A stretch of DNA of 26,008 bases from the IMG/VR virus record IMGVR_UViG_3300048838_000917, positions 1 through 26,008 of that record. The stretch is one strand, 5' to 3'. A program made the position numbers and the translations under genes. The DNA is from a virus. Of the stretch, positions 9,846 to 23,343 are shown piece by piece. The notes under the pieces are model-generated. The model saw only the letters and a program-made list of their open reading frames with translations, ran no database searches and was not told the DNA's origin. Positions within the stretch are counted from its first letter, which is position 1. Every line of letters begins with the position of its first letter.

Positions 9846-10244
9846 TTATTTGAGGAAAAAGTCAATAGCTTTGCCGACAGCATAAGCTACCAGTGAAATC
9901 GCAGCACCAGCGACTGCGATAATAACAACCATTTGCCCTTTAATCTTGGCCTGATTTAACTCTTGCCTGTTTCGCCAGTCTTCTAGCCGTTCAATACGGA
10001 GATCCACCCGAGTGGCCTTACGCCAATTTTCGATATCAATAACGCGCTCTACAACTTGTTCGTGACGATCAATGCTTTTTGACAGCCCCGTAATAGAAGT
10101 AGCAAGAACCGTTTGCGAGGCTTTTTGTTCGTGCATTGCATCGCGAAGGTCTGAAAATAGCTGTCTATGCTGCCGAAGTTCCTCGTCGATATTTTGTTGC
10201 GTTTGTGCGATCAACTTAAGTGCACTGTTTGTATCATCGGCCAT
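9846..10244 (-). CDS. Coiled-coil protein with C-terminal membrane anchor, holin-like (132 aa)
   Basis: The frame is open 65 codons further upstream, but the start at 10244 is preferred: a GGAAG/GGGAG site precedes it, and the upstream extension lies over the coding region of the preceding gene. Residues 1-100 are long charged helices with coiled-coil spacing. Residues 104-124 (QMVVIIAVAGAAISLVAYAV) form one membrane segment, followed by a short basic/aromatic end. This layout resembles small XhlA-type membrane proteins that cooperate with lysins. It lies two genes from the endolysin, which supports a lysis role. An alternative is a membrane-bound virion or regulatory protein. Confidence 0.6.
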   Translation of the reverse strand: MADDTNSALKLIAQTQQNIDEELRQHRQLFSDLRDAMHEQKASQTVLATSITGLSKSIDRHEQVVERVIDIENWRKATRVDLRIERLEDWRNRQELNQAKIKGQMVVIIAVAGAAISLVAYAVGKAIDFFLK

Positions 10245-10602
10245 TCTTCCAGCTCTCCCTCTTCTCCACGTAAAATGCACCGAGCGGAGTTTTCCCTTGA
10301 TATCGGAGGCGATATCTGCCGATAAGTTTGAACACATGCATTTCTTCAAACTCAGCGGCAAGATAATTCCCCGTATAATTAAAGAATTGCCCAGATCCTT
10401 CTCCGGCAACAGACTCAATAAGTAATTTATCGTTAGCACCTAAACCAAAAGCCTCGACGATAACGTAGTTATGCAGGTCCGTAACTTCAAATACGTGGGA
10501 GAGAACAGACGTAGAATCTTTCCCAAATAAAACATTTGGGTCAATCTTTTTATCTGCCTGCGGCGGAGTGGAAGACGTAACTACTGTGCCTGTCTTAATC
10601 AC
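10234..10602 (-). CDS. Single beta-module protein, related to the fibre N-termini (122 aa)
   Basis: The start is GTG at 10602-10600, overlapping the endolysin stop as GTGA, with a GAGG site upstream. From about residue 37 (FEVTDLHNYVIVEA) to about 114 (IGRYRLRYQGKTPLGAFYVE) it follows the same pattern as residues 39-118 of the 952-residue fibre: FEV, a strand, a Gly-rich turn, then G-x-Y-x-L/h-R-h. It is thus a stand-alone copy of the fibre-base module. It ends in a basic tail (KRESWKNGR) and overlaps the next gene by 11 bases. A role as a virion adaptor or a fibre-binding protein is inferred; no enzymatic motif is seen. Confidence 0.65.
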   Translation of the reverse strand: MIKTGTVVTSSTPPQADKKIDPNVLFGKDSTSVLSHVFEVTDLHNYVIVEAFGLGANDKLLIESVAGEGSGQFFNYTGNYLAAEFEEMHVFKLIGRYRLRYQGKTPLGAFYVEKRESWKNGR

Positions 10603-11114
10603 ACGGGAATCCTCACAAGATTCAAAACAAGAGAAGGGTTTCTACGTTTTGAAAAAACGCCGTCCCCACCATGCAATCGGGTATTCCCTTCAATAGTAAT
10701 GATATTGTCTCGTTTGTCAAGCTGATCTAACGCAACAATACCGATGTGACTAAAATCAAAAACAATAAAATCGCCGCGCCTAGCAAGTTCCCTACTAGGG
10801 TCAAGCAATCGGCAATTTGATTCTCGCCCCCATTCTGGCCAATCGAATGCTTTCGCTGACTTGCATCGCCACGAATCGGCAGACACGTTCCGGGAAATAA
10901 CTCCGGTTCTACGAAATTCATCTTCTACTCCGGGTTTTTTCAAAGCCTCACGAAGACACCACGAAGTAAACGCGGCGCACCAAGACCACGGACCGGGTTG
11001 GAGCCACGTGGCCTTTTGATACTCTACAATTCGCGGCGCATAATTCTTGGAGACTTCTTTGACTCCAATTTCATTCATCGCAATTTCGTAGATAGCGCGC
11101 GCGTATAAAGACAT
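10599..11114 (-). CDS. Endolysin, CHAP-type amidohydrolase/peptidase (171 aa)
   Basis: This is a NlpC/P60-CHAP-like cysteine peptidase that should cut peptidoglycan cross-links or amide bonds. The catalytic Cys46 sits in WSWCAAFTSWCL, His123 in FSHIGIV, and a polar third residue in IEGNTRLHGGDG (Glu142/Asn144). The first 30 residues (AIYEIAMNEIGVKEVS) match the helix that opens these enzymes. Length is normal for a single-domain lysin, and no cell-wall binding domain or signal peptide is visible, so release needs a holin. The gene is coupled to its upstream neighbour by a TAATG overlap. It lies 9 kb away from the holin/spanin genes. It could also be carried in the virion. Confidence 0.85.
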   Translation of the reverse strand: MSLYARAIYEIAMNEIGVKEVSKNYAPRIVEYQKATWLQPGPWSWCAAFTSWCLREALKKPGVEDEFRRTGVISRNVSADSWRCKSAKAFDWPEWGRESNCRLLDPSRELARRGDFIVFDFSHIGIVALDQLDKRDNIITIEGNTRLHGGDGVFSKRRNPSLVLNLVRIPV

Positions 11115-11743
11115 TAGTTAACCCCGTAACAATCGTTCTGCGTATTACTGTACGCCGCAGCTGCATGAATAAGGAAACTAGCATATCCGTAGTACGGTGT
11201 ACGGCTAGAATTAAATCTCGGATTTGAGTAAATCCAATATTCAAGTCCGATGGCTGCGGCTTTTACGGCTACTAAACTAAGCGTAGATGGATTATCGTTA
11301 AGTATCGGATTTGTTTCTCGGCAAAACGGACCTTTGGCAGGGTCATTATTAGAACGTAGAGTGGTATACAAATCAGCCGCATGCCCTACTACGGATAAGC
11401 TAAAAGCAATTTTTTCTTGTTTACTCCAATTTTCAGAACGCTCAAATGCCTGCGCTATTTCAGTGCTGTATCTATCGGAAGATTCCCAAGGAGAATCAGC
11501 AAGGCATAACGTAGGGATGATAAACAAAAACAACGCAAGAATTCGGGCAAGAAGACTAGGCTTGGGCGCATCTTCCGGCTGAATTTGCGCCCTAGCAGTA
11601 GCGTCGTCTAACTGGTCCACAGTAAATAGCGCGGGTACTAGCTTACCGTTTCTCCGCACTAAAGCTGGAAAATAGATAGTGGCCGCGCCGAATTTACGAT
11701 CATCATTTATTTCGACTTCCTTGATAACCGCGCTAGTTTTCAT
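11114..11743 (-). CDS. Membrane protein with ETNPIL motif (209 aa)
   Basis: Residues 1-62 form a soluble, charged domain containing ALFTVDQLDDATARAQI. Residues 64-82 (LLARILALFLFIIPTLCLA) are a membrane anchor. The remaining 125 residues contain VGHAADLYTTLRSN, CRETNPILNDNPS and a hydrophobic helix AVKAAAIGLEYWIYS. The ETNPIL block is one I have seen in small phage membrane proteins. The N-terminal piece resembles a separate small phage protein, so this may be a fusion. It directly precedes the endolysin and is TAATG-coupled to it, so a part in lysis or lysis control is possible. The function is not known. Confidence 0.6.
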   Translation of the reverse strand: MKTSAVIKEVEINDDRKFGAATIYFPALVRRNGKLVPALFTVDQLDDATARAQIQPEDAPKPSLLARILALFLFIIPTLCLADSPWESSDRYSTEIAQAFERSENWSKQEKIAFSLSVVGHAADLYTTLRSNNDPAKGPFCRETNPILNDNPSTLSLVAVKAAAIGLEYWIYSNPRFNSSRTPYYGYASFLIHAAAAYSNTQNDCYGVN

Positions 11744-11745
11744 AG

Positions 11746-12828
11746 TTATGTACCGTAAGCTGCAATCAAATGGCCAACTGCGTCGGCAATCGCTTGTTGA
11801 GTTAACGCCGCAGTTCCAGTCGTAGCGTCAACCGGCACCCCAAGCGCCACCGATCCAGCGGGCGGAACCGCACAAGTGCCAGTTAATTCATTAGCCGGAC
11901 CATAAACTGTACCTGTCCGAACATCTGCAACAGCAGGCATGTGCAGTGCGGACGTGTAATCGGCGGTGTACAGGTTTCTCGTGGACAGAAGATCGCTAGT
12001 TCTAACCTCCATATAAGTACCACTAGGAGAAGGAATCCATGCCCATCTGGCGCACCTTATTGGAGATGCGCCGTTACTTCCCGAGATAAGCGGCCCGGAG
12101 AAGTAAAATATAGTCGTGCTGCTCGCTCCGCTATCCACCGCTGGATGTAGGCCCGCGGTTATTGCGCCTCTTACCTCAACGCTGGTGCCGCTAGAAAGAA
12201 CTGTGCTGGCGATACCCGTCCCAGATTGGCCGGTGATATTCCCGACTATCGACAGCATTGCGCTCGAAAAATGCGTAATGCCACCAAGGCTGGTCGAGCC
12301 ATTCAGGGAACAGTTGCCGATGATATTACACGTTGTGGACCCGGTAAGAGCAAGAGCGACTTGCCCGGTCCCGATTACGTTTCCAGTAATGTTAAGGATA
12401 CCACCACTTGCAGCGGCGCCATTCCAGTTAGAGCCCCCGCCGTTCTGAATATCCCCGACAATATTCAGCGTCCCCGAGCCAGACATTGAAACAGCGCGTC
12501 CAGCGGTTCCTGTGCAGCTACCGATGATTGTCGAAACGCCGGGAGACGCATAGCTTGCATCGACGGCACTCGTTGTGGTGGCATTTCCGCCAACAACACC
12601 GTTCGTAGCTGTCAGAGTTACGCCTCCGCTTAGCGTAAACGCCCCTCCGGCGGCGACGGTCGGGCTTGACTCTGATTTGTTGCTTAGAGTCAGACAAGTG
12701 TAGTTACCGTCTATCGTAACAGTAAATCCATTACTGCGCACATCATCACCGGCAGCGGGTAGCGTACCGCCATCCCACGTTGCGGTACTACTCCAATTAC
12801 CGTTGGCTACAGCGTACCGAATAGCCAT
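11746..12828 (-). CDS. Beta-helix appendage/fibre protein (360 aa)
   Basis: The N-terminus (NGNWSSTATWDGGTLPAAGD) followed by NGFTVTIDGNYTC is a pattern I recognise from phage appendage proteins with a right-handed beta-helix. Residues 40-250 are short Gly/Ser/Thr/Asn-rich repeats with regular hydrophobics (TLNIVGDIQNGGG, ILNITGNVIGTG, CNIIGNCSLNG, LSIVGNITGQSG), which are about one helix rung each. The C-terminal 70 residues (VRTGTVYGPANELTGTCAVP, then GVPVDATTGTAALT) are a separate conserved tail. No active-site set for glycan cleavage can be picked out. It may be a receptor-binding or spacer part of the virion. Confidence 0.75.
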   Translation of the reverse strand: MAIRYAVANGNWSSTATWDGGTLPAAGDDVRSNGFTVTIDGNYTCLTLSNKSESSPTVAAGGAFTLSGGVTLTATNGVVGGNATTTSAVDASYASPGVSTIIGSCTGTAGRAVSMSGSGTLNIVGDIQNGGGSNWNGAAASGGILNITGNVIGTGQVALALTGSTTCNIIGNCSLNGSTSLGGITHFSSAMLSIVGNITGQSGTGIASTVLSSGTSVEVRGAITAGLHPAVDSGASSTTIFYFSGPLISGSNGASPIRCARWAWIPSPSGTYMEVRTSDLLSTRNLYTADYTSALHMPAVADVRTGTVYGPANELTGTCAVPPAGSVALGVPVDATTGTAALTQQAIADAVGHLIAAYGT

Positions 12829-12830
12829 TG

Positions 12831-13139
12831 TTAAGCCCTCACAGTAATAAACGCTTGGATTGCTTGCGAAATCGTACTGAGAGCAGCGGCCAGCGTCGGA
12901 TCAGACTGCGCCTGAGTATACGCATTTCCAAACACAAAAGATTTTCGCCCTAAACCATTAGGTGCAACATGCACCGTACTATCTTCTGCGACGCGATAGG
13001 GGGTAAGAGCAAGCACTACCTGCGCGCCTACGCTTGTTTCGTTGAAGGCCGGATTTGTGACAAGCTGCACTCCACAAAAGGGATATTCAACATCTTCGTG
13101 AACAAACGGTGTGGGTAAAACAAACCGCAAAGAAGACAT
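12831..13139 (-). CDS. Unknown small appendage-region protein (102 aa)
   Basis: A beta-rich first half (GAQVVLALTPYRVAEDSTVHV) is followed by an Ala/Gln helix (AYTQAQSDPTLAAALSTISQ) at the C-terminus. A GGAAA site lies upstream of the ATG. Small proteins with this plan are found in fibre/baseplate clusters of other phages, but I cannot name the family. It is enclosed by appendage genes on both sides, which suggests a fibre connector or chaperone. Confidence 0.65.
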   Translation of the reverse strand: MSSLRFVLPTPFVHEDVEYPFCGVQLVTNPAFNETSVGAQVVLALTPYRVAEDSTVHVAPNGLGRKSFVFGNAYTQAQSDPTLAAALSTISQAIQAFITVRA

Positions 13140-13149
13140 GGCAATTTCC

Positions 13150-13374
13150 TTACGAATACGTGTGCCCAGCGCGACCAGTCCAAGTTACGCCGACAGCTAC
13201 TTGTGTGCTAACATATACTCCTAGACTATATGTTAGCCGCGATATACTCCAAACGGGGTCTGTTTCAGCGGCGTTTTTTGGGGCCACTCCAGCATACTGA
13301 AAATTACCTTGTTCGTCATACCGTCGTTCTCCGCCGCTTCCTCCCCCTCCATAATTAAATCCTCGGAGTAGCAT
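13150..13374 (-). CDS. Short Gly-rich appendage protein (74 aa)
   Basis: The protein opens with a Gly-rich flexible leader (FNYGGGGSGGERRYDEQG) and then a compact beta domain with the pattern FQYAGVAPKNAAETDPVW, ISRLTY, GVTWTGRAGHTYS. This pattern recurs in small phage proteins adjacent to tail fibres and looks like a short beta-structured coupling domain. The stop of the upstream gene lies two bases before its ATG. The role is unknown; a link between fibre and virion is the best guess. Confidence 0.65.
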   Translation of the reverse strand: MLLRGFNYGGGGSGGERRYDEQGNFQYAGVAPKNAAETDPVWSISRLTYSLGVYVSTQVAVGVTWTGRAGHTYS

Positions 13375-13375
13375 A

Positions 13376-13879
13376 TTAAGCCTCCCAACGAGCGTAAACA
13401 GTTACCTGCGTATTGCTCGTGTCAACTCGACGAACTTCAAGTTGGTTAGCATTAGTAATGCCTTCAAACGTAAATCCGGCACCGTCGTTAATTGGCAAGC
13501 CTACGCCGGCACCGCCTTGACGAACTTCCAGCTTGGTGCCGGTATCATTCACAACAATAAGTCGTTCACATGCCTGCGCGGGAAATGCTGCCCAATCCGT
13601 ACCGACGACAGCTGTCTGTACAGACATATTTCCTGCACCCTGAACAGACAGATTTTCAAGGTAGTTAATTACGGTATCAAGTCGCGATTCTACTGAGGCT
13701 AGTTCGACAAGCAATTCGTCGTCGGCACTCATGCCGACGACTTTTACTACTCCGGTTGCAACACGGACACCACCGATAACTGAAACTAAACCTTGTTCGT
13801 TTGGCGGACTATCACGTTCAAACTTAGCTTCGTCGACGTAATTGATAGGCGCTCTGCGCTGAAGTTGCTGCAAACTCAT
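13376..13879 (-). CDS. Putative virion appendage protein with beta-sandwich C-terminus (167 aa)
   Basis: The first 45 residues (RRAPINYVDEAKFERDSPPN) are polar. Residues 55-80 form a helix (LLVELASVESRLDTVINYLENL) that could trimerise. The last 85 residues (DWAAFPAQACERLIVVNDTGTKLEVRQGGAGVGLP onward, broken here) are beta-strands in the style of phage receptor-binding or decoration domains. A GGAGG site precedes the ATG. The order of a polar head, helix bundle and beta tip is typical for small trimeric fibres. The family is not known. Confidence 0.65.
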   Translation of the reverse strand: MSLQQLQRRAPINYVDEAKFERDSPPNEQGLVSVIGGVRVATGVVKVVGMSADDELLVELASVESRLDTVINYLENLSVQGAGNMSVQTAVVGTDWAAFPAQACERLIVVNDTGTKLEVRQGGAGVGLPINDGAGFTFEGITNANQLEVRRVDTSNTQVTVYARWEA

Positions 13880-13888
13880 ACACCCTCC

Positions 13889-14821
13889 TTAGTTTACAGT
13901 CTGCGGAGAAATTAAGCACGCCTGCACAATAACTCGCGCAGAATCAGTACCCTCAGAATCAACCGGCGTAAGCGTCAGAAGCGAGGGGTCGCCGGCAATG
14001 TCCATGCGCCCGAAATTAGACGATACGACTAATTCATACTTTTCGGTCGCATCGATTACGATGCTACCCTCGGCGCCAGCAAGTGTAAACGAACCGCTAT
14101 CCACCATAACAGTGATCTTCTTGATAGCGTATCCATTCAGTGTGGTTCCAAAATCTAATGCCCCGCCGGCACTCGTAACCGTATAGAACCCAAACCTTTC
14201 AAGCGAGCTATACTGTTCGCTTACGGGCACCGGAAAAATAGGGGTACTGGCAACAGTCCCACCAGGTACATCAAAATACTCGTAGGTTACTGCACCAGTA
14301 GACGTATCAAGCGTCTGCTCGACCCAGACAAACTTTCTATCAGCGTTATCGTAGATCCAGAAACCGTCTTTCTTTCTACTACCAACAAGCGCAGGGGATA
14401 GCCCTGTACCCGTAACTGATCCGTTAAACGCTGGATTATATGCTGGAAGCGTATATTGCAATTTACTATCTAATCCACGCTGATCTTCTTCCAGATAAAC
14501 AATAACATTTTCTCCAGCATCTTGGCCGTCGCCTTCTCCGGCGCCGACAAATTCAACTTCGTAGATACCGGAAATAAGTTCCAAATGTTCCATGTTATTC
14601 TGACTGAGGCGAACTGCCTGCCCTTGCCTAATAACATCCGCCCAGACTGCCCCAAAAGAACCAGCCTGCGGGCTAATCTGCTTTTTCAGTTTGACATAAC
14701 TGCCTCCGGAAATTCCGGAAGCAGTTAAACGCACCGCGCCTTCGCGAACTTCAAAGCGCGGGCTAACTGCTAAGTCAGGCCGAGCATTGTTGATAAGAAA
14801 CAAACTACGTTCCGTTGCCAT
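13889..14821 (-). CDS. Fibre-associated protein with shared beta module (310 aa)
   Basis: Residues about 22-110 (PRFEVREGAVRLTAS ... ISGIYEVEFVGAG) follow the same plan as the module in the 952-residue fibre and the 122-residue protein. The middle (YTLPAYNPAFNGSVTG, KKDGFWIYDNADRKFVWVEQ) is a second beta domain. Residues about 205-310 form a third beta domain (YAIKKITVMVDSGSFTLAGAEGS, broken here). It sits between the main fibre and smaller appendage genes. The three-domain layout suggests a fibre base or adapter protein. No catalytic motif is visible. Confidence 0.7.
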   Translation of the reverse strand: MATERSLFLINNARPDLAVSPRFEVREGAVRLTASGISGGSYVKLKKQISPQAGSFGAVWADVIRQGQAVRLSQNNMEHLELISGIYEVEFVGAGEGDGQDAGENVIVYLEEDQRGLDSKLQYTLPAYNPAFNGSVTGTGLSPALVGSRKKDGFWIYDNADRKFVWVEQTLDTSTGAVTYEYFDVPGGTVASTPIFPVPVSEQYSSLERFGFYTVTSAGGALDFGTTLNGYAIKKITVMVDSGSFTLAGAEGSIVIDATEKYELVVSSNFGRMDIAGDPSLLTLTPVDSEGTDSARVIVQACLISPQTVN

Positions 14822-14834
14822 CGCTCAACTCTCC

Positions 14835-17693
14835 TTAGACAATTCCGACCCACGCGCCAGCGCGTTTGTGGTAGATCGTAGTCAGTGCACCACCATCGCT
14901 GCGGAAATAAAAATCTCCGTTGTTGCCGTCAGCATTATCAGGTGCGCCAACACCGCCATAAAGCCCCGCATTATTCTGGAAAGCACCTATAGGATGCCCA
15001 GGATAAACTTTACCGGCAGTTCTGATATCTTCGGTAAGATCATTGCCGAGGGTAACCTGGTTATTTTTAGTATTAGTAGCCTGATATCCAATAGCTACGC
15101 AATTTTCGCGTTTGAGGATTTCAATAAATCTATAAGTGCCTACCCCACCTGCGGCTGGGCTTATTCCGATGGCAATTAACGTCGTATTACTCTGTGCAAA
15201 TACCGTAAATGTAGTTCCATTTAGTATGTTTATTGGAGGGCTACCGCTTACCACATCAAATTTAACAGTGTGATATTCGCCTACGGCAAGGGTATGAATC
15301 GGCGTTGTAATAGTGTTTGTACCGTTAAATGCCGTACCCGTAAAATTAGCAGATATTGGACTACCGATAGCCCCTGCACCCGACTGCGAACCAATAAACA
15401 CGGACTTAACCGAGGATGCTGCTTGCCCAGAAGCGTAACCGATATTGATAGATTCTTCTTGTCCACCAAAAGAACCTGCATAAGGTCCAATAGCTACGGA
15501 ATCAGCACTATACCCTGCGAAAGTAGCTGAATCACCAATACTTAAATTACTGAGTAAATGCGCTGTATTTCCTGCGGACCAACCCATATTTAGAGTAAAT
15601 GCACGGTTAGGATCAACTGCCTCAACGCGCCCTTCAGTTTGCCCTTCGGTGCTAAATTTAATGCTTTGTCCGGTCTCAGTATATGTAACTTCTGTTTCGA
15701 TGGCAGGAACCACCGGAAACTTAGAAGCATCCATCACATAGTTTTTTCTCGGATATACAGCATTAGCACCCGCGGCAAGTCCTACGCAAAGAACCGAAAC
15801 AACTTGGTTATTGAAAACAGTGTTGTAGATATTTGCGCCAGCAGCAAACCCAAAGCAATCAATCGACGGAGCTACACCAGTGTACGACGCGAATGCCGTT
15901 GAACCTGCATTAACGCCGACGGCCACGATTGAACCTGCTTTAGCAGCAGAACCGGCATCTGGGCCAACCGCAGTAATGCCACCACCACCTTGCAAAACTA
16001 CGTTCCTTCCTGCCCAATTACCAAAAGCATTGATGGGAAAACTTTGCTGTTGGTTGCTAAAATTAATAGTATCCGCAGCACTATGCCCGACAACTGTAAC
16101 GTAAGGGCTGGGATTAAGTGAAATAACATTGGTGTGGTTACGGTATGCCGCACCGATAATGGTCGTAAAATCATTAAACCGACTTGCCCCAGAAGTACCT
16201 TCTGTGGCAATTCGGAGAACATTATTACGACCAGCATTACCCGTACCGGCACCGGGACCTACGCTATCGCCGATATAAATATTGCTTGACGAAGTTACAT
16301 TTTGGCCAGAACTAGTACCGATAGAAATATTGCCAAGACCAGAAACGCCTGTGCCGGCATTAAAGCCAATCGCAATTTGATTAGTTTGCAAACTCCCGGC
16401 ATTAACGCCTAAGTGTGCCGATTGCGTACCCGCCCGAGCATTGACAATATGCCCCAAACCTGCGGCGGTAATCACGAGATCGCCGGCAGTTTCTAGTTCG
16501 ATTTCCAAAGTGTTTGCCGCTTCAACCAATACACCCGGACCAGCAACATTTAACACGTTTTCGGCGCTAGGATCAATACGCAAATCGGCTTGCAGATTAT
16601 TAGCTGCAAGCGTAAGATCAATCGACTGCGTATCCGTTACGGAAGTAACGGCATTACCAACACCGCTATAGACGCCGTTAGCACGAAGCTCGATTAGATT
16701 ACCGGCATCGGGCGAACGAATAACCTGCGAACTAAGAACACCCATAGCGACGCTATGGTCAATAGTATTGGTATCGCTAGCGGTAGTAATCGTGCCCGCG
16801 AAACCCGTAGCGTACAGGCCGTTGGCACGAATCTCTAGCGAATTGCCACCGTCCGGCGAGATAATTGCATTTGCCGAGAGTACATTTGCCGCAAGAGTAA
16901 GGTCAATACTCTGCGTGTCAAGTACGCTGGTAGGCACATTTGCCGGATTGCCATTCTGCGGACCCGGCACATACACACCGTTAGCGCGAAGCTCAAGGAT
17001 TTGATTCGCGTCAGGCGAACGAATCACCTGCGAAGTCAAAATATTCGCAGTAACGGTATGGTCAATAGTGTTAGTATCGTTAGCCCCAACGATAGCATCT
17101 TCGATGTTGCCGTTGTTCGGTCCCCGCGCGTACATACCATTTACGCGGAACTCAAGGATATTTCGCGGATCGGGAGACAGAATAGCATCCGCACGGATAG
17201 TAACATCCCCCACACCGGGATCAGGATTTAAAGTAATATTGATAGTATTAGTATCAATTTCATCCAAAGAACGGACAACATTTCCGCCGGTTCCGAGCGA
17301 GGCGTAGTAATCGCCCCAATCGTGGGAAACGCTGAACGGGTAACAGAAAGCCTTAACCGTACCGAGGCCGCCGCCAGTAAGGCGAAGAACATAACGGCCT
17401 GAATAAAAGAGGATAACACTCGTAAGATCCTCGTCGAGAATCAGCGGAGTACCACGCACCGGAGTAAATGGGGTATACACCGGATTGCTGTCGTAGTCAC
17501 TTACACAATCAACTGCAACACCCTGTCCGGGGGCAAGATTATGTACGTGAATTACAACCGGCTCGTTCCAAACTTCAAAGACGGGAGAAACACCCGAAGA
17601 ACTTGTCTCGTCAAAAAGACGATTTTCTTTCTGAAACTGAGCTAATTGTGCGGCTCCATCGCGCTGGCGAGTACCGCGGGGATTAAGCGCCAT
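14835..17693 (-). CDS. Large repeat-rich tail fibre (952 aa)
   Basis: Residues 1-135 are an N-terminal attachment region with the shared beta module (FEVWNEPVVIHV ... SGRYVLRLTGGGLG). Residues 147-395 hold five tandem repeats of about 40-50 residues starting DTNTI or DTQSI. Residues 426-775 and 865-885 contain many GxxAG/SIG/AIG turns (QIAIGFNAG, NISIGTSSG, SVAIGPYAG, SVFIGSQSG, CVAIGYQA), the hallmark of YadA-type trimeric adhesin heads. The C-terminus (DGNNGDFYFRSDGGALTT ... AGAWVG) is a small conserved cap; no clear intramolecular chaperone domain is seen. Trimeric host-recognition fibre is the best call. It overlaps the upstream gene by 11 bases. Confidence 0.9.
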   Translation of the reverse strand: MALNPRGTRQRDGAAQLAQFQKENRLFDETSSSGVSPVFEVWNEPVVIHVHNLAPGQGVAVDCVSDYDSNPVYTPFTPVRGTPLILDEDLTSVILFYSGRYVLRLTGGGLGTVKAFCYPFSVSHDWGDYYASLGTGGNVVRSLDEIDTNTINITLNPDPGVGDVTIRADAILSPDPRNILEFRVNGMYARGPNNGNIEDAIVGANDTNTIDHTVTANILTSQVIRSPDANQILELRANGVYVPGPQNGNPANVPTSVLDTQSIDLTLAANVLSANAIISPDGGNSLEIRANGLYATGFAGTITTASDTNTIDHSVAMGVLSSQVIRSPDAGNLIELRANGVYSGVGNAVTSVTDTQSIDLTLAANNLQADLRIDPSAENVLNVAGPGVLVEAANTLEIELETAGDLVITAAGLGHIVNARAGTQSAHLGVNAGSLQTNQIAIGFNAGTGVSGLGNISIGTSSGQNVTSSSNIYIGDSVGPGAGTGNAGRNNVLRIATEGTSGASRFNDFTTIIGAAYRNHTNVISLNPSPYVTVVGHSAADTINFSNQQQSFPINAFGNWAGRNVVLQGGGGITAVGPDAGSAAKAGSIVAVGVNAGSTAFASYTGVAPSIDCFGFAAGANIYNTVFNNQVVSVLCVGLAAGANAVYPRKNYVMDASKFPVVPAIETEVTYTETGQSIKFSTEGQTEGRVEAVDPNRAFTLNMGWSAGNTAHLLSNLSIGDSATFAGYSADSVAIGPYAGSFGGQEESINIGYASGQAASSVKSVFIGSQSGAGAIGSPISANFTGTAFNGTNTITTPIHTLAVGEYHTVKFDVVSGSPPINILNGTTFTVFAQSNTTLIAIGISPAAGGVGTYRFIEILKRENCVAIGYQATNTKNNQVTLGNDLTEDIRTAGKVYPGHPIGAFQNNAGLYGGVGAPDNADGNNGDFYFRSDGGALTTIYHKRAGAWVGIV
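16518..17255 (-). repeat. Five-fold tandem repeat in the fibre gene
   Basis: Within the 952-residue fibre, five copies begin near residues 147, 206, 259, 307 and 354. Copies alternate between DTNTID and DTQSID starts, followed by NILTSQVIRSPDA or LAANVL-type strands and ending LRANGVY or IRANGLY. The alternation suggests duplication of a two-copy unit. Repeats of this sort can expand or contract by recombination and alter fibre length. Confidence 0.8.
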
Positions 17694-18005: not shown

Positions 18006-20030
18006 TTACGCTCCGAAGGGCATATTAGTAGGCGTCGGGGCGGGCAGCGCAAACCCCGCGTCAGGCGAAGCAGGCGGCACGCTACGCCCGTCTAGGGGCG
18101 GGCGGGGGGTTCCCTCAAGGGCAGACGGCGGCGCCGGCCTAGGGGCTTGCGCGAGGCCGGCAAAGGCATTGCCCCGCTTGGGATCAGGAATTACTTCATC
18201 AACATTATAACCCCGAGATTTAAGGATCTCACGAAGCAGTACGCTAACACCCTGCGGCGGAATAAACTGCAAGTATGGAGTAAGCACTTGCATAATTTCA
18301 ACAGTACGACTCTGCGACAATTCACGCTGCATAATACCGCTAGCACCGCGCGCAATAATCTGCGCATCGACCTTTGCAGCTTCATCGTCGCCGTACTTAA
18401 GTTCGTGATTGTAGTAGATAGTAACCGTAGGTGCAATTACGTCAGAATCAATATTAAGTAAAACTTGCTTAATACCCTTAGCAGCATTGCCCATCAACAT
18501 CGACAAGCCGCCCATTGTACGCCCGGCGCCAGCAACCTGCGGATTACCAAGCACATACGCCGGTACACCGCTGATATCGTCGGCAAGTTTAAGGTACTGA
18601 TCGACAATACCCTGCAATTCAGCAGCATTACTATCAACCTTCTGAAACCGGAAAACAGGTTCAGAAGTACCCGTCATGCTAGGTTCGGTACGGTACAATC
18701 TACCCGGTTCAATCTGGTGCGGCTGTTCTTCCTCGGCACTAAGGCGAGTAATATCAAACTCGCCAAACGGACCTGCGGAAAACGACATATTTTTTGCGAG
18801 ATTTCGAGCCGCAGCATTTGCCATGCGCTCGATAGACTCCAACAAATCCGGCAGAGCCTCGCCCCAAAAGCATCCATTAACTTTCTTAAAGCTAGTGGTA
18901 TGAATCGGACGCACGCCCAGCGGGTGTGGATTTAGCACCGCATAAATAGTCTCGCCATCGACGACCCACACAATGGATTCGTAAGGCTTTTGCGGATCAT
19001 CAACAAGCACGCCGGCGTCGATTAGCATCTGTCCTTTGAGAACACCGTAATACACAAGCGCATCAATATACTCTTCGCGCTCAGTATGATCGGTACGCTC
19101 TTTAAGGTGATCCTCTTCGCTATCCGTATTGAGATCAATACGTGCTCCGGAATGCTGAAACTTATCTAGCAACTTACGGACTGTTTCTGCCTTGAAACCT
19201 TCAATCGCCAAACACTCATGCAGATATGCGTAAGTAAGTTGCTTTTTAATGATGATATACGTACCATCTTGCCCGTTTGTAGAATCGCGAGACGGGAAAA
19301 CAGAAAGCGGATCAATCCGCTCACATTCCCGCACTACAACACGATGAACATCGATCTTATCTCCTACCCATCGCATACGCTCGCGCGAGCGAAGAATAGG
19401 CGCTTCAAAGATGGCAGTAGGATACGTGGTAACATCATCTAGAAAACGACGGAATTCGCGCATCCAGTTGCCTTCTAGCATTCTGTCGCGAATTAGTGTT
19501 TCCATATGCATAGCAGCTTGTGTCGCGCGGTCCATAACGAACCCACGCGCAAGCTCTTTGTAGCGTTTCGCGGCCTGAACAATAGCCCCCATATCAGAAA
19601 TCCCCATAGCAAGAATTTCTTGCTTGAGGTTTTCAATAGCTACTTTTTTGATATTTTCAGGGATTGTAGGGTTTGGCGTAGGTGCTAACGTCCACGGCTG
19701 TTCTTCGGCATTCGCCAGAATATCCGTCATCCACGACAGCGCCGCACGGCATTTAAGATCAATAATTGGGATATAGATATCAGACGTAGCCGCAACTAAG
19801 TCAGCATCTTCCGGGTCATACTCCCGCCGACGCCGCCGAAGCGCACGCATAATACGATTATCAACGCCCGAAGCTTGCCTGTTATCTCTCGCAATGCTGA
19901 AACAAGATTCTACATGCGAGGCAAGCGTATCCTCGACGATCTTAGCTTGAAGCTCGATAGCTTCGTATCGAGCTTCATCCGCACTTATTTCTTTTGCGGA
20001 TCGCGGGGCGGCGTAGTTAGTTAGGCTCAT
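18006..20030 (-). CDS. Portal protein (674 aa)
   Basis: The portal is the dodecameric ring at one capsid vertex through which DNA enters and leaves, docking the terminase and the tail adaptors. The sequence shows an N-terminal helical clip (KIVEDTLASHVESCFSIARD), the wing domain with many charged residues, and the conserved stem/crown stretch LLESIERMANAAARNLAKN followed by DQYLKLADDISGVPAYVLGN. After about residue 629 there is a Pro/Ala-rich tail ending PTPTNMPFGA. The length is at the upper end, as for podovirus portals. It overlaps the spanin gene by 14 bases upstream. Confidence is high from length, order and motif style. Confidence 0.9.
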   Translation of the reverse strand: MSLTNYAAPRSAKEISADEARYEAIELQAKIVEDTLASHVESCFSIARDNRQASGVDNRIMRALRRRRREYDPEDADLVAATSDIYIPIIDLKCRAALSWMTDILANAEEQPWTLAPTPNPTIPENIKKVAIENLKQEILAMGISDMGAIVQAAKRYKELARGFVMDRATQAAMHMETLIRDRMLEGNWMREFRRFLDDVTTYPTAIFEAPILRSRERMRWVGDKIDVHRVVVRECERIDPLSVFPSRDSTNGQDGTYIIIKKQLTYAYLHECLAIEGFKAETVRKLLDKFQHSGARIDLNTDSEEDHLKERTDHTEREEYIDALVYYGVLKGQMLIDAGVLVDDPQKPYESIVWVVDGETIYAVLNPHPLGVRPIHTTSFKKVNGCFWGEALPDLLESIERMANAAARNLAKNMSFSAGPFGEFDITRLSAEEEQPHQIEPGRLYRTEPSMTGTSEPVFRFQKVDSNAAELQGIVDQYLKLADDISGVPAYVLGNPQVAGAGRTMGGLSMLMGNAAKGIKQVLLNIDSDVIAPTVTIYYNHELKYGDDEAAKVDAQIIARGASGIMQRELSQSRTVEIMQVLTPYLQFIPPQGVSVLLREILKSRGYNVDEVIPDPKRGNAFAGLAQAPRPAPPSALEGTPRPPLDGRSVPPASPDAGFALPAPTPTNMPFGA

Positions 20031-20343
20031 TGAGGCACGCCTCTGCTTGCTTTTTGACGCTTGTCAATTCAATCATGCATGATTCGTAGGCTTCTGCGCC
20101 TTCGATATACGCACGCTCCAAATCATCCCGAGGTATTAGTCCTTGCTCGGTCGGGAGTGGAATTGGGTAAGCTTTTGGAAGGTTGAATTGAAGCTGGGGC
20201 TTGGGTTTTGATACTGGCGGCGAGTCTATCTCGGGCTTCGTTACTTTCTCGCCCCACTTGCATGAGGATATTACTACGGTCAGAGTCAATATCGCAAGAA
20301 CTCGAAGCGGGGTTTTGCCTCTGAATTTGTGTGTAGCGTGCAT
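20017..20343 (-). CDS. Outer-membrane spanin lipoprotein, Rz1-like (108 aa)
   Basis: A basic N-terminus is followed by a hydrophobic stretch (LRVLAILTLTVVISSC), with Cys28 at the lipobox (ISSC), so the mature protein should be a lipid-anchored outer-membrane protein. A Pro-rich segment follows (PEIDSPPVSKPKPQLQFNLP), typical for Rz1. The last 45 residues (DLERAYIEGAEAYESCMIEL) add a helix, making it longer than the classic Rz1 of lambda. It begins inside the Rz gene in another frame, with an AGGAG site, and continues 106 bases past the Rz stop. It acts with Rz to fuse inner and outer membranes at lysis. Confidence 0.8.
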   Translation of the reverse strand: MHATHKFRGKTPLRVLAILTLTVVISSCKWGEKVTKPEIDSPPVSKPKPQLQFNLPKAYPIPLPTEQGLIPRDDLERAYIEGAEAYESCMIELTSVKKQAEACLNEPN

Positions 20344-20650
20344 ACAAACTCCTATACTTTTGTTCCGCCTGTTCTTGTTCCGCGTTTCTTAATTGAACAA
20401 TACTATTAACGACGTCGAGCGCAGCGTGGTAATCTGCAATTACCTGATTTTGTTTCTCCAAATGCTGCTCGTATATGTCTTTGATTTCGCTCGCCTTTCC
20501 CTCGGCCAACTCTAATTTGACTTCGAGGTATTTGGCTTTCCAAACTGAATGCGCAACAAAACTAGCACCGCTGGCAGAAGCAATACTAGTCAAGAGCATC
20601 AAGATCGGTATGGTTTTGCCTTGTATCAGGTTGAGCATTTGGGTCCACAT
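20123..20650 (-). CDS. Inner-membrane spanin, Rz-like (175 aa)
   Basis: A single N-terminal membrane segment (about residues 13-33, TIPILMLLTSIASASGASFV) is followed by a periplasmic coiled coil (LEVKLELAEGKASEIKDIYE, then EQHLEKQNQVIADYHAALD) to about residue 110. The last 60 residues are Ser/Ala/Pro-rich. That layout is the i-spanin plan. Its last 221 bases overlap the Rz1-like gene in a different frame. It also overlaps the holin gene by 65 bases upstream. A second possible start is the Met at residue 5. Confidence 0.8.
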   Translation of the reverse strand: MWTQMLNLIQGKTIPILMLLTSIASASGASFVAHSVWKAKYLEVKLELAEGKASEIKDIYEQHLEKQNQVIADYHAALDVVNSIVQLRNAEQEQAEQKYRSLYARYTQIQRQNPASSSCDIDSDRSNILMQVGRESNEARDRLAASIKTQAPASIQPSKSLPNSTPDRARTNTSG

Positions 20651-20936
20651 GGATCGTTTTCGCTCTCAGAAGTGAAAGAACTGAATTGGACATATAGCCA
20701 GAAAAGAACGCCGAAGCAGCATTTAGCTGTTCAAACTCGCGCAACGCAAGGCAGCATCCAATAGTAATAATAGTATTATGAAGCAAATGGTATGGGTACG
20801 AGCGAATGTACGAAACTATTGATCCTTGCTTATGTATTACGCGGTATTGGACGGTTTTCTTTGTAACATGCGCCGCGCCGCCAAGTAAAGCGCAGAAAAT
20901 TACTATGACGATCGGCGATGTTAAGAATTCAATCAT
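20586..20936 (-). CDS. Putative holin, three membrane segments (116 aa)
   Basis: Three hydrophobic segments lie at about residues 7-24 (SPIVIVIFCALLGGAAHV), 51-67 (LLHNTIITIGCCLALRE) and 72-89 (NAASAFFSGYMSNSVLSL). The C-terminal 25 residues are charged. A small three-TM protein next to spanin genes is the usual profile of a holin, which forms the inner-membrane holes that time lysis. The ATG overlaps the upstream stop as ATGA, and its 3' end overlaps Rz by 65 bases, making a compact lysis group with Rz and Rz1. The endolysin is not in this cassette. Confidence 0.7.
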   Translation of the reverse strand: MIEFLTSPIVIVIFCALLGGAAHVTKKTVQYRVIHKQGSIVSYIRSYPYHLLHNTIITIGCCLALREFEQLNAASAFFSGYMSNSVLSLLRAKTIHVDPNAQPDTRQNHTDLDALD

Positions 20937-21409
20937 GCTTGTATCTCGTACTGGATTTTATCAGGTTCTCGGAAATAATCACCAGTATACCGATCTAAGT
21001 ATTTGTCGAAGAAAGGAATCTGCGGTGCGCTTGGCTCTACTGCAAATATTCCTCGTCTGCACTCGTAATACCGAAGTAATTTTCTAGCGTCTTCCAAAAT
21101 AGCATGAATGTTATCTTCTAAGTTAAGATTTCTATGTAACGTAATACCGTATGCCTGCAACATATTTTTGCGCTTAATAAAAAGAACCGCCGCTACGATA
21201 CGTTCGTTATGTTCCCACACCCACAGCCCTGCATCTGTGAAAGTAATCGCTGGCCGCATCCGTCGGAAAAAATCTTCCCGAGTAAAACTAGATTTTTTAC
21301 ATATAGTTGCTGTATCTGCAACTAAAAAGTTATACAAAAGTTCTAAATCAGCTTCGCTACTAAGCTGGCGAAGTATAGTATCTTCTGTGATTGCGAGGTC
21401 GTCAAGCAT
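20933..21409 (-). CDS. GNAT-like acetyltransferase-fold protein (158 aa)
   Basis: The second half has the pattern of a GNAT fold: strands (LWVWEHNERIVAAVLFIKRK), then AYGITLHRN, then a helix (IHAILEDARKLLRYYECRRG), then a strand (IFAVEP) and a FFDKYLDRYTGDYF loop. A clear acetyl-CoA Q/RxxGxG/A loop is not visible, so it may be a degenerate or non-enzymatic member. It overlaps the terminase gene by 8 bases and couples to the holin by ATGA. Small GNAT-like proteins beside the terminase/portal occur in several phages, with no established role that I know. The assignment is by fold impression only. Confidence 0.5.
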   Translation of the reverse strand: MLDDLAITEDTILRQLSSEADLELLYNFLVADTATICKKSSFTREDFFRRMRPAITFTDAGLWVWEHNERIVAAVLFIKRKNMLQAYGITLHRNLNLEDNIHAILEDARKLLRYYECRRGIFAVEPSAPQIPFFDKYLDRYTGDYFREPDKIQYEIQA

Positions 21410-22892
21410 ATTTTACTACTCTTTGTGGCCTAGATTCAGTTTCTCCAGCGCGTAGTATTCTGGCTTGCTTTCTAGCGCCCAGCCTTTGCGCGCCAAAACG
21501 AACGAATAGGCATCCGTACTGAATCGCATCCATTACATGCGAATGCATATTCTTGTCTGGTAGGGGCTTGTGCTGATCTTTCGTGCCTATAAGTCGCGCG
21601 TATGCGTATTGGCCAAGGAATCCCTCGCGCGCGAGCGTTACATCAGGCGACATAAGAAAGCCGTCAGTTCGATTCAAGAAGTAATCGACTGATTCTTTTC
21701 GTGCAATAAATGAGTTTGTGATTGCAGGAACGCCATATAAGTTACGTTCTTTGAGCACATCGAATGGTGTGCGCTTATCCAGCGACGAACGTCCTCGACC
21801 AGCAGGATCGCCAACGATGTAATACCGCATGTTAGAGTAGCGTGTGGATAGGATGGGGATTATGTACCCGTCCAGAAATTCTTCTAACGATACGTCTGTC
21901 GGCGTGATTTCTTCCAGCAATCTTACTCCACCTAGCGGCGCTTGCTGCATGAAAACACAAGCAGGAGTAAGGCCCCAATCCAAACCAATAACCAAAGGAA
22001 GTGATTTATCAACTTTGAGCTTTTCTTTCGCGACATGATGCTTGGTCTTGAAGTTGGGGAATACTGGCTTGCCATGCATTGGCACGCCATATTCATTGCA
22101 CACCATGCGGCGAATCGTGTTGTGATCGCCATTAGCCGAAGCAATAATCTTTTTATAGTAGTCGAACCCGCCGACAAAGGCTACATTTTCAGCTTCTGGA
22201 TTTTCAATATACTGTTCCGTCTGCTCGTCGAAAAGCATAGCAGGCGGCTGCGTAAAAAACTTATATCCTGGGGGAGTTTCATCTTCCGCATATCGATACC
22301 ACCAGTGCCGCGTAGATGGCGGGTTTGTATCCGCCACAATTCCTTTCCACGTAGCGCCTTTGAATACGATATTACCATGTTCATCTTCGATGACTTCGGG
22401 AAAACGACCAATACGCTGCGGGAGATATTTAATAACTTCGGCGTCAATTTCTGACGCTTCATTGATATAGGCACCGGTGTATTCGGTAGAGAGAAGTTTA
22501 CCGATATCATCAGGCGTATTTACCGCCATGAAGATAACTTCCATATCTACAGTAGTACCATCGCCTAGTTTGCGGATCATTCGTCCGCGGATAGGAATAT
22601 CGTAGACAATCGGGCAAACAGCATCAGGCACCCAGCGTTGCCAAGTTTTGATTGTCGTTTGCTTTAATTCGGGATACGTATTTCGGATTAACACGAAGCG
22701 AGTACGACGTACGCCTTCCCACGGTTCTTGCATATGGGCACGACGAAACAATTCCATCATACACGCGGAAGACTTACCAGAACCGACTGGTCCCCGTATA
22801 CCACGAAAGAAACTATTATCATTATGAAATTCTAGGCACGTTGGCGAAGCAACATACCTAATAATTTTATTTTTGCTGGAGTAGTCTGTCAT
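21402..22892 (-). CDS. Large terminase subunit (ATPase-nuclease)
   Basis: This is the motor that translocates DNA into procapsids and cuts concatemers. The Walker A motif GPVGSGKSS lies near residues 34-42. The Walker B segment TGAYINEASEI has the catalytic Glu at about 145, and VADTNPP is near residue 188-194 (coupling motif). The RNase H-like nuclease carries acidic residues at Asp305 (VIGLDWGLTP), Asp362 (YIVGDPAGRGRSS) and Asp455 (HSHVMDAIQYG). The start at 22892 is chosen because a GGA site lies close to it and the preceding in-frame Met at 22940 has none. It overlaps the small terminase by 26 bases. Confidence 0.95.
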   Translation of the reverse strand: MTDYSSKNKIIRYVASPTCLEFHNDNSFFRGIRGPVGSGKSSACMMELFRRAHMQEPWEGVRRTRFVLIRNTYPELKQTTIKTWQRWVPDAVCPIVYDIPIRGRMIRKLGDGTTVDMEVIFMAVNTPDDIGKLLSTEYTGAYINEASEIDAEVIKYLPQRIGRFPEVIEDEHGNIVFKGATWKGIVADTNPPSTRHWWYRYAEDETPPGYKFFTQPPAMLFDEQTEQYIENPEAENVAFVGGFDYYKKIIASANGDHNTIRRMVCNEYGVPMHGKPVFPNFKTKHHVAKEKLKVDKSLPLVIGLDWGLTPACVFMQQAPLGGVRLLEEITPTDVSLEEFLDGYIIPILSTRYSNMRYYIVGDPAGRGRSSLDKRTPFDVLKERNLYGVPAITNSFIARKESVDYFLNRTDGFLMSPDVTLAREGFLGQYAYARLIGTKDQHKPLPDKNMHSHVMDAIQYGCLFVRFGAQRLGARKQARILRAGETESRPQRVVKYA

Positions 22893-23343
22893 TTTCCTGC
22901 ACCAATCTTTCCCGAGCTTGAGCGGCCATTGCCGGATCAAGGATCATATTGAACTGATACGTAGGTCCATTATTGGCATTGCCATCAACCTTGATAGCAT
23001 CACCATATTTGGACTTATTTAGTTTGGCAGCTAACCAGCGGTAATGTTGCGCCAGGGCTTTTGCCCGATCAATTTCTTCTTTTCCATCGGCGTATTCCAG
23101 TTCGGTGGAAGCCTTATCTACTAAGGTTTCTGCACCAATACGCATAGCTTCGGTCAATTCGGCGTCGCCGATTTTTGACAAAAGTCCGCGTAATTGTCCC
23201 GAAGGAATTGAAAGTGATTTTGCAGCAGCAGAGAAGGTGTGGCCTTCCTGAACTTTCACAAGGAATAAATCAATTTGTGACTGCGATACTTCGGCAACTT
23301 CTGGCTTTACGTCCAGCGGTATTTTTATGGCAATGAAAGGCAT
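22867..23343 (-). CDS. Small terminase subunit (158 aa)
   Basis: The protein recognises the packaging site and loads the large subunit. A helix-turn-helix-like stretch occurs at residues 36-57 (TFSAAAKSLSIPSGQLRGLL). Then an oligomerisation region follows, and the block RWLAAKLNKSKYGD (residues 102-115) is a common signature of small terminases. The C-terminal tail (MAAQARERLVQENDRLLQ) is helical and could bind the large subunit. It is the first gene of the leftward late operon, immediately downstream of a sigma70-like promoter and a repeat array. Confidence 0.85.
   Translation of the reverse strand: MPFIAIKIPLDVKPEVAEVSQSQIDLFLVKVQEGHTFSAAAKSLSIPSGQLRGLLSKIGDAELTEAMRIGAETLVDKASTELEYADGKEEIDRAKALAQHYRWLAAKLNKSKYGDAIKVDGNANNGPTYQFNMILDPAMAAQARERLVQENDRLLQQK

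Follow-up and report, generated by a model that had tools for sequence, protein, structure and literature searches.

Why should three proteins of one phage, a long fibre, its downstream neighbour and a short protein encoded beside the endolysin, begin with what looks like the same domain, and what would this domain do? The question is raised by IMGVR_UViG_3300048838_000917, a podovirus-type phage record of 26,008 bases with almost every gene on the minus strand, which was analysed over its whole length and is referred to as the window. An earlier note had seen one beta plan in the three proteins and suggested that it was copied to attach different appendages to the same virion site. We find that a beta-rich domain of about 95 residues heads the three proteins here and the same three in the single close relative, the 63.5-kb record IMGVR_UViG_3300037458_000177 (portal 67% and terminase 74% identical). 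Its likeliest function is probably that of a virion-proximal mounting domain of the fibre and of the 310-residue protein. The genes and their modules are located as follows:

14835 to 17693, minus strand: fibre gene, 952 amino acids (aa), an open reading frame (ORF) with a 55% identical counterpart in the relative.
17331 to 17624, minus strand: module of the fibre, residues 24-121, from alignments and profile search; 77 of 98 residues are identical in the relative.
13889 to 14821, minus strand: gene of the 310-aa protein, an ORF directly downstream of the fibre gene.
14477 to 14809, minus strand: module of the 310-aa protein, about residues 5-115 with its core at 15-115, from alignment, profile and model.
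10234 to 10602, minus strand: gene of the 122-aa protein, almost a single module, from ORF and sequence, with a GTG start.
10255 to 10539, minus strand: module of the 122-aa protein, residues 22-116, from alignments, profile and model.

All three ORFs were confirmed, and the aligned cores lie close to the residue ranges proposed before. The module is the N-terminal domain in each protein. In the fibre a long repetitive shaft comes after it, and in the 310-aa protein about 195 residues that include a second, predicted beta domain. The 122-aa protein, whose gene overlaps that of the endolysin, has almost nothing beyond the module and is indeed nearly a single-module protein. The FEV opening described in the earlier note was found in all three proteins and reads FEV, FAV or FVV in the relative, and its closing strand pair IxGxYxhxh appears as YSGRYVLRL, LIGRYRLRY and ISGIYEVEF. 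Over its full length the module can be aligned in all six segments, three from each phage, and S, F, V, G, G and Y are unchanged throughout. In addition, the fibre and 122-aa copies have the stretch before FEV in common, with an LF strand about 12 residues upstream. Because LF (AF in the relative's counterpart) lies about 15 residues upstream of FEV in the 310-aa protein, the module of this protein probably starts there.

Pairwise BLASTP between the three proteins of the window gave no signal. We used hhalign on pair-profiles, each made from the phage's sequence and that of the one close relative; the genes common to both phages were cut into such tiles, and tile pairs between genes amounted to 4,027 comparisons. 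The fibre and 122-aa modules ranked first (score 32.5, P 1.7e-5, 79 columns) and the fibre and 310-aa modules third (score 24.0, P 9.6e-4, 78 colinear columns). At least 60 columns were spanned by only five of the 4,027 alignments, three of which are the module pairs. Rank 2 (score 24.1), a fibre-shaft tile aligned with ORF 20586-20936 over 15 columns, was judged spurious.

Hidden Markov models (HMMs) built from two of the three families were run on 3,913 ORFs, drawn from the two phages and 14 other phage loci. In all three trials a member of the left-out family was the top non-member, at E 0.017 for the 310-aa protein, 0.0018 for the fibre and 0.092 for the relative's 119-aa protein; in this last trial the phage's own 122-aa protein reached just E 6.1. 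The HMM search found the module absent from the 14 other loci. When a full-length profile scorer was applied to 2,810 phage decoy tiles, no decoy scored as high as the 122-aa segment with the fibre and 310-aa profile or as the fibre with the 122-aa and 310-aa profile. With the fibre and 122-aa profile 24 decoys equalled the score of the 310-aa segment, so that its link is weaker by this scorer. Single-family profiles left 1 decoy as high for the 122-aa and 29 for the 310-aa module (fibre profile), 0 for the fibre and 279 for the 310-aa module (122-aa profile), and 87 for the fibre and 248 for the 122-aa module (310-aa profile). From these comparisons we regard the fibre and 122-aa modules as homologous with high confidence, and place the 310-aa module, by a moderate tie, in the same family with good but lower confidence.

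No credible match to the three proteins or to their counterparts in the relative was obtained from Pfam (E up to 1), PHROG or NCBIfam, and sequence searches with the three family alignments returned nothing below E 0.6. The sole family listing, XisH at E 0.25, lies outside the module, in the 305-aa protein of the relative, and was set aside. TAL effectors, returned at E 7.5e-7 by a PDB search with the six-row profile, were rejected as a repeat artefact, as no single stretch passes.

AlphaFold2 was used to model the 122-aa and 310-aa proteins as monomers from separate two-row alignments. The mean pLDDT (predicted local distance difference test) was 52.9 for the 122-aa and 52.3 for the 310-aa model, both of low confidence, and lay at about 47-72 per ten-residue block in the module of the latter. 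Strand states of the two models agree at 65 of the 85 residues aligned by sequence; this agreement peaks at shift 0 and exceeds what any of 100 rotations gives (61 at best). Fold matches common to both models are YomS 6i5o, the ColG domain 1nqj, 9ues and BFVD A0A7S5V0E5. Among the VIA matches YomS ranks first for the module of the low-confidence 310-aa model (Z 7.9 over 96 residues) and 38th for the likewise low-confidence 122-aa model (Z 6.0 over 87 residues). The ColG domain scores Z 6.4 with the 310-aa module and 7.1 with the 122-aa model, and 9ues 7.1 and 6.0, respectively; carboxylase and collagen-binding domains head the list for the 122-aa model, with Z 7.5-7.1. The fold-comparison tool counts Z below 8 as commonplace, and the fold class obtained from these models is suggestive only, because all Z-scores lie below 8. 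A Foldseek search of the whole 310-aa model against the PDB returned mainly cupins and other two-domain beta proteins at a root-mean-square deviation of about 20 Å and was discarded. The earlier note had expected the three predicted folds to superpose; for the two that were modelled the strand register agrees and no contradicting fold mismatch was seen, a result that is not decisive at this confidence.

The six-row profile finds exactly three sites in the window and exactly three in the relative's record. The relative encodes counterparts of all three proteins in the same gene order, namely a fibre of 1,001 aa, a 305-aa protein (49% identical to the 310-aa protein) and a 119-aa protein (43% identical to the 122-aa protein). 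Since orthologues are 43-81% identical between the phages and paralogues about 20-28% identical to the fibre copy, and since each phage carries three copies, the copying of the module is older than the split of the two phages. The module copying proposed before is thus borne out by three divergent paralogues, N-terminal in each protein, in two phages. Besides this relative, scans of viral and genome contigs detected just one distant portal locus. In tblastn searches of 50,697 phage records the 310-aa and 122-aa proteins had no match at E up to 10, the relative's 119-aa protein had one match at E 7, and all matches of the fibre N-terminus were at E 0.8 or worse.

The 122-aa gene is flanked by two genes:

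10599 to 11114, minus strand: endolysin, CHAP-like (Pfam CHAP at E 2.7e-5, falling just below Pfam's cut-off; PHROG endolysin at E 3.5e-8).
9846 to 10244, minus strand: protein with a coiled coil and a C-terminal transmembrane (TM) segment, overlapping the end of the 122-aa gene; its start was read from the sequence.

The GTG start of the 122-aa gene overlaps the endolysin stop by 4 bases, the same overlap is found in the relative, and the order of the three genes with their short overlaps is kept there. By this arrangement the 122-aa gene is predicted to be translationally coupled to the endolysin gene. The coiled-coil/TM protein is possibly, by a weak resemblance, XhlA-like; PHROG hemolysin was listed at E 0.056 for the longer ORF of this gene only and not for the short form.

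On balance we incline to a mounting and oligomerisation domain, copies of which seat the fibre and the 310-aa protein while the 122-aa copy is free-standing or recruited for lysis. The module would be a virion-proximal domain of jelly-roll type, and its paralogous copies would fix both the fibre and the accessory protein of 310 aa to the particle. Produced jointly with the endolysin, the 122-aa copy might act as a free-standing cap, decoration or assembly factor, or may alternatively have been recruited into the lysis cassette. The fibre's N-terminal 130 residues are 81% identical in the relative (105 of 130) and the remainder matches at 443 of 822 residues; a fibre with a mounting end and a host-facing end fits the conservation of its N-terminal 420 residues and the variability of residues 421-780. 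As it is encoded next to the fibre and has a module copy of its own, the 310-aa protein is most readily understood as a further appendage or accessory. A more specific role, in which the free 122-aa copy from the lysis cassette would occupy or cap mounting sites late in infection, setting the number of fibres or accessories per virion or stopping released virions from sticking to debris, seems improbable to us.

Several observations weigh against this assignment. The leaders preceding the module differ among the three proteins, which speaks against attachment at the same virion site; residues 1-17 of the fibre are the same in the two phages, but neither the 310-aa nor the 122-aa protein has this peptide. 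The 122-aa copy has no appendage attached and sits between the endolysin and the coiled-coil/TM gene. Conservation of the fibre reaches to about residue 420, so that the module is not singled out, and no module protein matches a family with a known anchoring role in Pfam, PHROG or NCBIfam. In direct comparison by hhalign the 122-aa and 310-aa modules are not significantly similar (score 13.0, rank 370 of 4,027), with 68 columns nonetheless in register, and by these profiles the two copies are linked via the fibre copy, not directly. Single-family HMMs did not find the other families convincingly among the 3,913 ORFs: with that of the 122-aa family the fibre comes out at E 0.96 and the 310-aa protein at E 2.9, and neither that of the fibre family nor that of the 310-aa family lists the other two. 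To these points come the low confidence of both models and fold matches that all stay below Z 8.

It is conceivable, if doubtful, that the 122-aa protein is a lysis-cassette protein acting like XepA or YomS and that the fibre and the 310-aa protein are structural, with a common fold but not a common attachment role. PMC6834076 places XepA beside xhlA-xhlB-xlyA in PBSX, reports it absent from mature particles, describes its C-terminal half as resembling YomS, and proposes that it either disrupts membranes or sits at the vertices of the capsid. In keeping with this setting, the 122-aa gene lies in or beside the lysis cassette in both phages, coupled to the endolysin gene and followed by the coiled-coil/TM gene, and YomS is among the fold matches of both models; the remaining two module copies, unlike the lysis-side one, lie in the fibre region. 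YomS, with one domain, and XepA, with two, are beta-sandwich proteins of similar size (PMC6834076), and are marked by a 4+4 antiparallel fold and a pentameric disc. They are not fibre N-termini, however, and sequence support is absent for the phage modules: the plan looks alike by eye, but hhalign of the module profile against YomS gave P 0.48, and a position-specific scoring matrix gave z 0.28 with 1,033 of 2,810 decoys as high. Moreover, in the same source YomS by itself is not cytotoxic and adjoins tail genes, away from the lysis genes of SPbeta. That one fold might serve both as an appendage base and as a lysis-cassette protein is attractive, and we keep it as a lead, given that neither comparison linked the modules to YomS by sequence.

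A general ligand-binding or oligomerisation beta-sandwich, for example sugar-binding, reused without a tie to a virion site, would explain binding domains such as that of ColG among the fold matches; we think it rather unlikely, as the module is N-terminal in all three proteins and conserved in the fibre, and host-binding parts are expected in the fibre's variable residues 421-780. That unrelated beta-rich segments resemble one another by chance, if only in the case of the 310-aa protein, has in its favour the blank BLASTP, the 24 decoys that equal this protein and the noise level of 122 versus 310 alone. Rank 3 among 4,027 with 78 columns in register, the top non-member position among 3,913 ORFs and the strand register all make it unlikely, and for the fibre versus the 122-aa protein it is very unlikely. 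Least probable is that the 122-aa gene is what decay has left of a former fibre gene: it encodes a bare N-terminal module, as such a remnant would, but its frame is intact in both phages (122 and 119 aa, 43% identity) at the same place and with the same 4-base overlap.

At the fibre N-terminus the mounting domain that we favour stands where a T7-type fibre anchor would, the label of which we take to be Phage_T7_tail and which binds the tail hub where adaptor and nozzle join; the test for this anchor returned no Pfam family at E up to 1 and likewise none in PHROG or NCBIfam. Shared fibre anchor domains are already known. According to PMC6872550 and PMC10386132, fibre N-termini of other podoviruses are conserved on account of their binding to the hub, and differing bodies may share an anchor; in K1-5 the small adapter gp37 has its anchor in common with T7 and K1F fibres (PMC6872550). 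The anchors of T7, K1F, K1-5 gp37 and the KP32 type thus resemble the modules in that a conserved N-terminal domain mounts differing bodies. They differ in that the modules match no Pfam, PHROG or NCBIfam family and occur as three paralogues in one phage, one of them near-bare and coupled to an endolysin gene. For the turret base protein of the archaeal virus HFTV1, PMC12494034 gives 6IA5 as the only probable structural relative, named there as a B. subtilis phage-like element protein with reference to the XepA/YomS paper. A parallel to the proposed mounting role is that this protein carries a capsid appendage; it belongs to a hexameric capsid turret. Sulfitobacter phage PhiGT1 and its Rhizobiales relatives are podoviruses in which fibre genes are in excess and the attachment ring is duplicated (PMC10386132), but their dual tail-hub proteins (tubeA) concern the socket, not the plug. 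Branched receptor-binding systems are marked by a T4gp10-like docking domain and by short conserved peptides on the second protein. What sets this case apart is an anchor-like family without a described Pfam, PHROG or NCBIfam relative, present three times in a genome, with one near-bare copy coupled to the endolysin; a limited keyword search of the literature found no report of such an in-genome module set.

Five genes lie between the 310-aa gene and the endolysin. They are largely exchanged between the phages, three of the five being without a counterpart in the relative, and the module genes and the endolysin are retained in both around this stretch. The segment 11746-13374 is a predicted swap region, because its genes are largely replaced in the relative by unrelated ones, some with beta-roll repeats. 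The 167-aa protein at 13376-13879 is 71% identical in the same region of the relative and, in its C-terminal half, hits PHROG 19032 at E 7e-20, a family of unknown function; a likeness of the C-terminal half of the 310-aa protein to this protein was dropped, the pair being absent among the top and long tile alignments listed. The head of the 209-aa gene at 11114-11743 appears to have moved, because its first 73 residues match (46%) an ORF that the relative has at a different position and on the opposite strand. The fibre shaft carries imperfect repeats DTxxIDxTV...SPDAxxxLELRANGVY at about residues 145-390, followed by many (A/S)IG-type beta-roll repeats, and in the relative's fibre the repeats resemble a Sinorhizobium phage Phosso protein, at 37% across some 140 residues.

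The window further encodes the small and large terminase subunits, a portal, a scaffold-like protein, tail proteins and a major capsid protein assigned to PHROG 267. No relative at the DNA level was found in the phage collection searched. Portal and terminase have podovirus-type phages as nearest known ones, at 20-40% identity. In the region 18006-22940 these differ between portal (Rhizobium RHph_TM3_14A, HMO-2011 and Roseobacter phages) and large terminase (Pasteurella Pmp11, MEP301 and BcepC6B), which suggests that the packaging genes have a mosaic ancestry. At 20017-20936 two ORFs overlap in different frames beside a small membrane protein, one of 175 aa with an N-terminal membrane segment and one of 108 aa with a lipoprotein-like start. 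The pair resembles what we take to be a nested Rz/Rz1 spanin pair, and PHROGs gave no informative match for it. If the resemblance is true, the phage has a Gram-negative host, and its lysis genes lie in two places, here and at the endolysin.

The three paralogues, one of them near-bare, would define a new family of fibre anchor domains, for which the 122-aa protein offers a small and probably soluble means of testing what the domain binds. If the XepA/YomS fold match is real, it would join a lysis-cassette protein of unknown role with the bases of virion appendages.

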